In this document: positions 19,488 through 23,115 of the stretch, one piece after another
How positions within the stretch are numbered: position 1 is the stretch's first letter
How the letters are laid out: the number at the start of each line of letters is the position of its first letter
DNA from: Acidimicrobiales bacterium
GTDB taxonomy: Bacteria > Actinomycetota > Acidimicrobiia > Acidimicrobiales > CADCSY01
Reading direction: 5' to 3'
Assembly (NCBI GenBank): GCA_035512495.1
Contig: DATKDW010000058.1
Coordinates: 1 to 64,000 of the forward strand
DNA length: 64,000 nucleotides
Notes under the pieces: generated by a model
What the model was told of the DNA's origin: nothing
The model's database searches: none
What the model saw: only the letters and a program-made list of their open reading frames with translations
Translations under genes and position numbers: made by a program

Positions 19488-20029
19488 TCGAGCACCTCGA
19501 GCCTGGCAGTGACGTAGGGGCGGGTTCCGTCGCGGTAGTCGAAGATCCCCGGCTGGTCGAAGCGGCGCTCGAAGGTCCCACCGGGAGCGATGTCACCGGA
19601 GGCGAACGACCCGTCACCGGCGTTGACCGACCGGACCTCGGAGTCCTCGTTGACCCACCGGACAACCGATCCGGCGAACACCCGCGCCACGCTCGGGTTG
19701 AACTGGGGGCTGAAGTCGTCGCTGCGGATGGCGATGGTGATGGCCGCGTTGTCGACGGGGGCAGTCGTCGGCGGGGGCGGAGGCGGCGGCGCGGTGGTGG
19801 CGGGTGGGGCGGTCTCAGGCGGAGCGGTGTCGGGTGTCGCCTCCTCCGAGAGCGGGCCGCTGCCGAGGTCGACTGCCGTCGTGGTGGTCTCACCGAGGCG
19901 GCCCTCGCCTGCCTCCTGCTCCTCGAAGCTGCGCAGCTCGTCGCTGCCGACGCTGGTGTCACCGCCGCAAGCGGCGAGGAGGACAGCTGCGGCGATCAGG
20001 GCGGCGGCCAGGCGGCGGCCGATGGTCAT
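19484..20029 (-). CDS. Cupredoxin-fold lipoprotein lacking copper ligands
   Basis: 181 residues from ATG 20029. Signal peptide and lipobox LLAAC at the N-terminus, a Glu/Thr/Pro linker with a PPPPPPP stretch (about 75-90), then a C-terminal domain of about 90 residues: ITIAIRSDDFSPQFNPSVARVFAGSVVRWVNEDSEVRSVNAGDGSFASGDIAPGGTFERRF and a final PGIFDYRDGTRPYVTARLEV. The layout is that of plastocyanin/azurin-like domains, but the usual HTV histidine reads RSV and the terminal YxCxxHxxM reads YRDGTRPYV, so all four ligands appear lost by eye. It may be a structural or binding domain only. ATGA overlap with the transporter fusion gene upstream. Confidence 0.75.
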   Translation of the reverse strand: MTIGRRLAAALIAAAVLLAACGGDTSVGSDELRSFEEQEAGEGRLGETTTTAVDLGSGPLSEEATPDTAPPETAPPATTAPPPPPPPTTAPVDNAAITIAIRSDDFSPQFNPSVARVFAGSVVRWVNEDSEVRSVNAGDGSFASGDIAPGGTFERRFDQPGIFDYRDGTRPYVTARLEVLE

Positions 20030-23000
20030 GAGAGGCTCCCGGAACGGTTGACGGCGGCCTCGGAGGTGCCGAGGTACGAGGTGATGACGCGCTCGTCCTC
20101 GAGGACGACCTCGGGAGTGCCACGCAGCACGACGGCACCCTGGTCGAGCGCGACCAGCTCGTCGGAGACGGCGGAGATGAGCGGCATGTCGTGCTCGATG
20201 ATCAGCAGGCTGCACCCGGTCTCGTACCGGATGCGCTTGAGGAGGGGGACGAGGCCCTCGGCCTCGCGCTGGGCGATGCCCGACGAGGGCTCGTCGAGCA
20301 GCAGCACGCGGGGTTCGGCAGCCAGCACGCACGCCAGGTCGACGATGCGCCGCAGGCCGGTGGAGAGCTCCTTGACGAAGGCGTCGCGGTACTGCCCGAG
20401 CTCGAGGAGCTCGATCAGGCGCTCGGCCCGGACCCGCAGGCGCCGCTCGGCGGCGCGCGCGCGAGGCATCGCCACAGCGTTGAGCGCGGTGCTCTTGACC
20501 TCGAGGCGCTGCTCCAGTGCCACCAGGAGGGTCTCGAAGACGGTGAGCGACGGGAACATCCTGGCGTCCTGGAAGCGCCGAACCAGCTTGCGGCGGGCAC
20601 GCTCCTCGGGGCTCATCGACGTGATGTCGACCCCGTCGAGGCGGATGATCCCCTCGTCTGGGCGCAGCTGGCCGCTGATCATGTCGAAGATGGTGGTCTT
20701 GCCGGCGCCGTTGGGGCCGATGAGGCCGAGCACCTCGCCCTCACCGAGATGGAAGCTGGCACCGTTGACCGCGGTGATGCCGCCGAAGCGCTTCACCAGG
20801 CCCTCGACCTCGAGGACCTTGCGGACCTCTCCTGCATCGCCTCCCACCTTGGTGCCGGCCCGCAGGGGGCCGTCGGTGAGGGCGCCGGTGCCCTTGACGT
20901 AGACAGCGCGGAGGATGTCGGGACGGGCCAGCAGCTCGGAGGTGGGGCCCGAGAAGCGAACCTCGCCCTTCTCCATGAACACGGCGCGGTCGGCCAGCGT
21001 CAGCGCCACGTTGACCGACTGCTCCACCACGATCACGGTCACGCCCCGCCGGTGGATCTCCCGGACGATCTCGATGAGGGCACCCACCGCGACGGGCGAC
21101 AGCCCGAGGGAGAGCTCGTCGATCATCAGCAGCTTCGGGTCGGCCAGGAACGACTGGGCGAGGCTGAGCTGCTGCTGCTCGCCGCCGGACAGCGAGCTCG
21201 CCATCTGGTCGGCCCGCTCGGCCAGGACGGGGAAGATCTCGTAGACATCGGCGAGGCGGCGGGCGACCTCGTCGGCGTCGTCGGTGAGCCAGCCGCCGAG
21301 GAGGAGGTTCTCCTGCACGCTGAGCCCGGGGAACACCCCGCGCCCGCCCGGCATGTGGATGACCCGGCGCCCGGCCACCTCGTGGGGCGGCATGTGGGTG
21401 ATGTCGCGCCCGTCGAAGACGATGGCACCGGCCGACGCCTCCTTGGAGCCGCTGATGGCCCGCAGCAGGGTCGACTTGCCGGCGCCGTTGGTGCCGAGGA
21501 GGGCCACGATCTCGCCCTCCTCCACGTCGAGGTCGACGCCGAAGAGGACCTTCACGCCGTCGTAGTCGACCTCGACCCCGCGGCACACGAGCATCTTGGC
21601 CCGACCGGCGGCCTTGGCCTCGCGCCACTCGCGATCGGCCACAGCGGTGGCGAACGATGCCCGGATGTCGAGCTCGAAGAACCCGCCCGCGGTGGCAGCA
21701 ACGAGGCCCCCGATCGCCACCAGCGGAGCGGCGAAGAGGAACACCGTCTCGTAGCCGTACTCGAACTGCATGAGCCCGAAGATGGGGGTGAAGATCACCA
21801 GCCCCGGCAGCTCCGTCAGGTTGAGCACCTGGAGGCCCTGGGTGCGGACCCGGGGCGGGATCACCTGGGAGTAGATGGCACCCAGCGCAGGGCCGGTCAG
21901 CGACGCCCCGAAGCCGATCATGGCCTGGAGCACGACGATGGCGAGCAGCGGTGGCCGCAGGGCGAACAGCGCCAGACCGATCGAACTGGGGATGGCGAAG
22001 AGCCCCACCACGGTGAGCACCCGGCCCGGGTTGCGCCCGAGCAGGCGGTCGATGATGGCGCCACCGTAGGCGGACCCGGCGAGCGAGGCGGCGGCGGCCG
22101 GGGTGAAGGCCATGCCGATCTGGAAGGCGTTGAGGTTGTACTCCTCGCGCAGGAACAGCACCACGAACAGGCCAGTCACGATGAGCGGCGCGTCTCCGAT
22201 CACCCTGGCGGCGAAGAGGCGCCGCACCGTGCGGATGGCGAAGACGGTTCGCCACCCCTCGGCGAAGGAGAGGGGCTCGTCCTCCACCGTGGAGTGCTCC
22301 TCGTCGACACCGAGGGAGCGGCGCTCCATGTACCCCCGGACCGGCTCGCGGAGGACGATGGCTGCCACCACGCCGAGGACGACGAGGGGAGCGCCGAGGA
22401 ACAGGTACGAGACCCGGAAGCCCAAGGTGAAGATCAGCGTGCCGGCCACCAGCGGGGCGATCAGGGTTGCGGCATTGCGGAACATCCCCAGCAGGGCGAA
22501 GACCCGGCCGCGGGTCTGGGGCGGGTAGTAGTCGGCGATCAGCGAGAACCGGGGGACGGCGCTGGCCTCGTCGGCGACCTGGTCGCCCACCAGGGTGGTG
22601 CCGAGGGTGAACGCGGTGCGCATCTGGCCGGTGGCCATGGAGAACAGGCCGGAGAAGAACGTGCCGATGGCGACGAACGGCACCCGGGGGTGGCGGTCGG
22701 CGTACCAGCCGGCACCGAGGGCGGCGAGGATCGAGAAGACGCCCACGACCTGGAGGATGCCGATGAGCTGGAGGATGTTGATCTCCAGCTCCTGGGCGAT
22801 GAACGGCGCGGCGATGCTGAACGCGGTGGAGTCGAGGCGCTGGAAGAAGGTGATGGACCCGAGCACGACCACGGGTGCCAGGCCGTATTGGGTGCCCCGC
22901 AGGCTGGCGTAGGAGCGCAGGTCGGCCAGGGCCCGGGCCAGCAGCGAGCGGCGGTCGGCGACCTCGTCGTGCTGCAGGAAGTCGGGCGTGCCCGCCGAGC

Positions 23001-23115
23001 CGGGGAGGTCGACGTCATTCGGGCGATCGTCGGGACGGTCCTCGACTTCGGTCGACGCGCCGGCGGTGAGCGGCTGCTCGCGCCGGGGCCGGGAGGGCTG
23101 CTCGGTGGTCGTCAT
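20026..23115 (-). CDS. MFS transporter fused to LivF-like and LivG-like ABC ATPases
   Basis: 1029 residues from ATG 23115 (MTTTEQPSRPRREQ). Residues 75-500 form an MFS transporter: GWYADRHPRVPF resembles motif A, PQTRGRVFALLGMFRNAAT, GGAIIDRLLGRNPGRVL, with about 12 hydrophobic segments. Residues 508-745 are a LivF-type ATPase: Walker A GTNGAGKST (541-549), signature SLSGGEQQ, LLMIDELSLGLSP, VVEQSVNVAL. Residues 767-1029 are a LivG-type ATPase: Walker A GPNGAGKT (800-807), signature read as LSTGLRR, LLLDEPSSG, IIEHDMPLISA. The pair would energise the fused LivH/LivM permease encoded just upstream (ATGA overlap). A single frame covers all three domains with no stop or frameshift. Covalent MFS plus two ABC ATPases is an unusual architecture; whether the MFS part transports or is a membrane anchor/receptor is unknown. 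Confidence 0.9.
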   Translation of the reverse strand: MTTTEQPSRPRREQPLTAGASTEVEDRPDDRPNDVDLPGSAGTPDFLQHDEVADRRSLLARALADLRSYASLRGTQYGLAPVVVLGSITFFQRLDSTAFSIAAPFIAQELEINILQLIGILQVVGVFSILAALGAGWYADRHPRVPFVAIGTFFSGLFSMATGQMRTAFTLGTTLVGDQVADEASAVPRFSLIADYYPPQTRGRVFALLGMFRNAATLIAPLVAGTLIFTLGFRVSYLFLGAPLVVLGVVAAIVLREPVRGYMERRSLGVDEEHSTVEDEPLSFAEGWRTVFAIRTVRRLFAARVIGDAPLIVTGLFVVLFLREEYNLNAFQIGMAFTPAAAASLAGSAYGGAIIDRLLGRNPGRVLTVVGLFAIPSSIGLALFALRPPLLAIVVLQAMIGFGASLTGPALGAIYSQVIPPRVRTQGLQVLNLTELPGLVIFTPIFGLMQFEYGYETVFLFAAPLVAIGGLVAATAGGFFELDIRASFATAVADREWREAKAAGRAKMLVCRGVEVDYDGVKVLFGVDLDVEEGEIVALLGTNGAGKSTLLRAISGSKEASAGAIVFDGRDITHMPPHEVAGRRVIHMPGGRGVFPGLSVQENLLLGGWLTDDADEVARRLADVYEIFPVLAERADQMASSLSGGEQQQLSLAQSFLADPKLLMIDELSLGLSPVAVGALIEIVREIHRRGVTVIVVEQSVNVALTLADRAVFMEKGEVRFSGPTSELLARPDILRAVYVKGTGALTDGPLRAGTKVGGDAGEVRKVLEVEGLVKRFGGITAVNGASFHLGEGEVLGLIGPNGAGKTTIFDMISGQLRPDEGIIRLDGVDITSMSPEERARRKLVRRFQDARMFPSLTVFETLLVALEQRLEVKSTALNAVAMPRARAAERRLRVRAERLIELLELGQYRDAFVKELSTGLRRIVDLACVLAAEPRVLLLDEPSSGIAQREAEGLVPLLKRIRYETGCSLLIIEHDMPLISAVSDELVALDQGAVVLRGTPEVVLEDERVITSYLGTSEAAVNRSGSLS

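Follow-up and report, generated by a model that had tools for sequence, protein, structure and literature searches.

The window, a stretch of 64,000 nucleotides from an Acidimicrobiales bacterium (assembly GCA_035512495.1, contig DATKDW010000058.1), carries on its minus strand an open reading frame that starts with an ATG at 23115, ends with a stop at 20026 and runs through 1029 residues without interruption (Table 1). As the first-pass annotation had proposed, an MFS domain and the LivF- and LivG-type ATPases are all part of this single chain, and the Walker A and signature motifs quoted there are present in the translation. Pfam placed MFS_1 at residues 87-432 (E 1.6e-34) and ABC_tran on two stretches (E 1.2e-61), and matched the LivG C-terminal tail weakly; NCBIfam typed residues 512-728 and 507-740 as UrtE/LivF and residues 765-1017 as LivG/UrtD, both at scores below the LivF and LivG equivalog cut-offs. 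In the AlphaFold2 model (mean pLDDT 84.5, pTM 0.71) the helices of the MFS bundle extend from 80-109 to 455-475, a helix at 477-502 is followed at once by the first LivF strand (507), and the LivF-LivG linker (740-762) is disordered. Residue D483 of the helical linker is conserved in 98% of 63 fusions. The top matches of a PDB fold search were chains of paired ATPases, such as DppD of a peptide importer. Upstream of the fusion gene, and overlapping its start as ATGA, is a gene for a fused LivH-LivM permease (LivHM) with two BPD_transp_2 stretches (E 1.1e-53). Both belong to a cluster (17842-31405) that is conserved in close relatives and comprises MoxR, DUF58, TgpA, a lipoprotein, LivHM, MFS-LivFG and two more lipoproteins; the product of the putative lipoprotein gene next to LivHM gave no match in Pfam. 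In one genome (G281) the segment from TgpA to the fusion is present twice in tandem (L159, L160).

Table 1. Features of the fusion locus, in coordinates of the window.
Feature	Position	Strand	Basis
MFS-LivF-LivG fusion gene, 1029 aa	20026..23115	-	open frame, Pfam MFS_1 and two ABC_tran, AlphaFold2
LivG-type ATPase domain, residues ~765-1017	20065..20823	-	Pfam, NCBIfam; LSTGLRR signature, EHD
LivF-type ATPase domain, residues ~507-742	20890..21597	-	Pfam, NCBIfam; GTNGAGKS, LSGGEQ, DE motifs
Helical linker from TM12 to LivF, residues ~477-506	21598..21687	-	model; conserved D483
MFS domain, residues ~75-480, Spinster-like	21676..22893	-	Pfam MFS_1, model helices, family profile
LivH-LivM fused permease, 782 aa	23112..25460	-	two BPD_transp_2 domains; junction sequence
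Putative lipoprotein, conserved, upstream of LivHM	25457..26560 (start approximate)	-	neighbour in close relatives
TgpA-type transglutaminase	26553..28865	-	Pfam TgpA_N, Transglut_core; conserved in L158, L159, L160
DUF58 protein, conserved neighbour	28881..30236	-	Pfam DUF58, E 8e-14
MoxR-type AAA ATPase, conserved neighbour	30224..31405	-	stop-to-stop open frame; Pfam AAA_3, E 2e-59
Candidate substrate-binding protein, N-terminal membrane helix	31438..33336	+	stop-to-stop open frame; homology and fold

The first-pass annotation had named a misassembly or frameshift as what would overturn this architecture, and had suggested a domain-architecture search. The genome of the window itself holds four diverged copies of the fusion, the other three being full-length and 43-45% identical, together with two relatives that lack the MFS domain. 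Sampling covered Actinomycetota genomes, a GTDB pattern scan and a plasmid collection. Of 396 Actinomycetota genomes, 17 (three of them single-contig) gave a single match that spans MFS and LivF, and the pattern scan (one genome per species over 84,980 species) recovered 79 loci, all actinobacterial, with the isolate Jiangella asiatica among the hosts. Over 60 loci in the Actinomycetota have the fusion, which is thus recurrent and not a singleton. Because the genome has four copies and the fusion recurs in other genomes, single-contig ones among them, an assembly artefact, a frameshift or chance can be ruled out.

Across all loci, 65 reading frames have the order MFS-LivF-LivG and 37 are LivF-LivG without MFS; LivH-LivM-LivF-LivG forms a single chain in nine frames, with two more in which only LivM was recognised. 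The last arrangement also occurs in the genome of the window, where a frame of 1363 residues (L157:6720-10808, G000:C19) encodes an entire LIV-type ABC transporter. In genome G064, LivH-LivM-MFS-LivF-LivG is one Pfam-confirmed frame of 1729 residues (L148:1371-6557, G064:C115); this chain holds the membrane parts of two transporters and both ATPases. In Embleya sp. NBC_00888 (a complete replicon) and many others, a binding protein is followed by MFS-LivF and then by LivH-LivM-LivG. The modules come in several chain layouts. In every one that bears an MFS domain, this is attached N-terminally to LivF, with LivHM as the invariable partner. A fused LivH-LivM permease lies directly upstream in 66/66 checkable fusion genes (those three-domain genes whose upstream sequence exceeds 1 kb), which bears out the earlier proposal that the fusion belongs with the neighbouring LivHM. 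Composition, layouts and partnership with LivHM are evident from the loci compared. Relatives without the MFS domain keep the importer intact as LivHM and LivFG, and the reverse, an MFS domain kept with the importer missing, was not seen among the mapped fusion relatives; the MFS domain therefore appears to be a membrane module added to a LIV-type importer.

Genes for substrate-binding proteins lie near most mapped loci, and homologous ones adjoin all five other copies and relatives in the genome of the window. The product of 31438-33336 is homologous to the binding proteins that adjoin other copies. Pfam and PDB sequence searches with it gave no match, and its identity was therefore assigned by fold: the model (pTM 0.73) found its matches among LIV-type binding proteins (4mlc, E 4.8e-13), and the protein is predicted to have the Leu/Ile/Val-binding-protein fold. 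A direct match to Peripla_BP_6 was obtained with 3 of 17 members of this binding-protein family, and with the Embleya member. The model also places a disordered linker of about 80 residues between the N-terminal membrane helix and the binding domain. As the gene is about 6 kb from the fusion and in divergent orientation, its pairing with the LivHM of the window is presumptive.

With two BPD_transp_2 domains, LivF and LivG ATPases that retain catalytic motifs and a LIV-type binding-protein fold, the best explanation is that the fusion protein would be the ATPase subunit of a LIV-type (HAAT) ABC importer that depends on a binding protein. LivFGHM systems (HAAT importers, TC 3.A.1.4) share homologues of LivH, LivM, LivF and LivG and the LIV-type binding protein, whereas here LivH is fused to LivM, LivF to LivG and a whole MFS carrier to LivF. 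The ATPases differ as well: the Q-loop of Escherichia coli LivF reads PEG, whereas the whole subfamily, with or without MFS, has PGG in the LivF Q-loop and LSTG[ST]RR as the LivG signature. Together, these two motifs hint that one ATP site may be weakened.

Compared with solved structures, the MFS family profile comes closest to the Spinster carriers (Spns, TC 2.A.1.49; HnSpns 6e8j, E 1.2e-39; SPNS1, E 1.1e-25), which are stand-alone proteins; here the MFS domain instead precedes an ABC ATPase in the same chain. The MFS domain of the window alone matched Spinster weakly (E 8e-4), and the best NCBIfam model, at a score far below cut-off, was of the D-galactonate/anion:cation symporter (ACS) type. 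Membership in the MFS superfamily is indicated by the helical bundle (80-475) and by motif A, of which D140, R141 and R144 are conserved at 95-100% in three-domain fusions. Because motif A and a membrane aspartate (D95 of TM1, 87% in three-domain fusions) are kept, the fused MFS is probably a working carrier; against this, only 44% of the two-domain MFS-LivF group retain the TM1 Asp. Distances between MFS domains track those of the binding protein and LivM beyond what LivF and LivG account for (partial rank correlation 0.32-0.48, 15-19 loci), a modest signal suggestive of co-divergence.

In a LivFG tree of 109 rows (midpoint root), all MFS-bearing rows fall in one weakly supported part that also holds MFS-less rows, and the other part has no MFS, a pattern that fits one gain of MFS and several losses within the MFS-bearing part. 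The MFS domains of the three-domain fusions form one clade (support 100/99). The two-domain MFS-LivF proteins do not form a single clade against free MFS proteins (p-AU 0.00045), although L199, one of the rows counted as free, is an immediate neighbour of a LivF frame. As the MFS and LivF trees both separate the two-domain from the three-domain group, the pattern points either to two or more gains or to an early gain followed by losses, and the linkage of MFS to LivF may have arisen more than once. Since several lineages are without it, the MFS domain appears inessential to the importer.

We propose, with moderate confidence, that the locus encodes a complex with two engines, in which an ATP-driven LivHM importer carries a tethered MFS carrier that handles the same solute or one related to it. 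The binding protein would pass its solute to LivHM, the LivF-LivG pair would hydrolyse ATP beneath it, and the linker helix would hold the MFS domain alongside, where it would act as a secondary carrier, probably using an ion gradient of its own; its direction would most likely be outward, releasing surplus or a breakdown product during import by the ABC part. The transport role of the MFS domain and its substrate are what we infer here. This reading is supported by the invariable LivHM neighbour, the five-module chain of 1729 residues, the layout with binding protein, MFS-LivF and LivHM-LivG, the adjoining binding proteins, the MFS-less lineages that keep LivHM and LivFG, the conserved carrier motifs and the co-divergence of the MFS domain. 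The same genomes contain free-standing relatives of the MFS domain, none of them beside liv genes, so that these lend no support to a shared substrate. Two such relatives in the genome of the window are at L204 and L213 (G000:C83, C96).

An unlikely but serious alternative is that the MFS domain is a non-transporting scaffold or regulator, which anchors LivF or senses substrate. Three charged residues of the cytoplasmic helix before TM7 (E286, R289, R299) are 97-100% conserved, and only in three-domain fusions, as a contact surface would be; they are candidate contacts to the ATPases or to LivHM. The MFS sequence also diverges fast, the ATPases do not, and the domain has seemingly been lost several times. 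However, the three-domain fusions conserve two features typical of working carriers, motif A and the TM1 Asp, and an anchor would not need a whole carrier fold. Of the roles for the MFS domain offered in the first-pass annotation, recruitment or coupling finds support, and the conserved carrier motifs make a mere anchor less likely. We consider it improbable that the ATPases drive the MFS domain itself as an ATP-powered pump, apart from or together with LivHM, even though the link from TM12 to LivF is short and helical in the model, the charges before TM7 would suit such a contact in being conserved in fusions, and an ATPase is known to serve a carrier in ArsA-ArsB. In ArsA-ArsB and KdpFABC a carrier or channel protein is joined to an ATPase machine that powers it, whereas the ATPases here have a permease of their own, found in all 66 checkable genes and retained with the same ATPases in MFS-less relatives. 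As LivHM is always there and the ATPase motifs are the same in members with and without MFS, an ATP-driven MFS that dispenses with LivHM appears unlikely. Very improbable, in our view, is that two independent transporters share a chain simply for equal dosage, uncoupled physically and functionally: these operons do often contain gene fusions, LivH-LivM and LivF-LivG being examples, but the MFS domain stays on LivF and LivHM stays its partner in all the differing layouts, and the MFS domain co-diverges with the binding protein.

In keeping with the view that an MFS domain with two ABC ATPases is not a described architecture, no published MFS-ABC fusion was found among the open-access papers searched. 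MFS carriers fused to regulatory domains do exist, with sensor kinase, CBS or UspA partners (PMC10710835, PMC3924187). These likewise have an extra domain covalently attached to an MFS carrier; their partners, however, are regulators, whereas here the MFS domain is joined to what powers a different transporter. A rather doubtful extension of the two-engine proposal is that of a hybrid transporter, primary and secondary at once, whose ATP hydrolysis beneath LivHM would also gate or drive the tethered MFS domain, so that two solutes are exchanged or one is passed between the carriers. It is usual to class transporters as either primary (ATP-driven) or secondary (ion-driven), and automatic labels such as 'MFS transporter' or 'ABC ATPase' hide what is one machine. 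The recurrent weld of an MFS domain to the ATPases of an importer, in several layouts, provides a natural system for asking whether both mechanisms couple in one complex.
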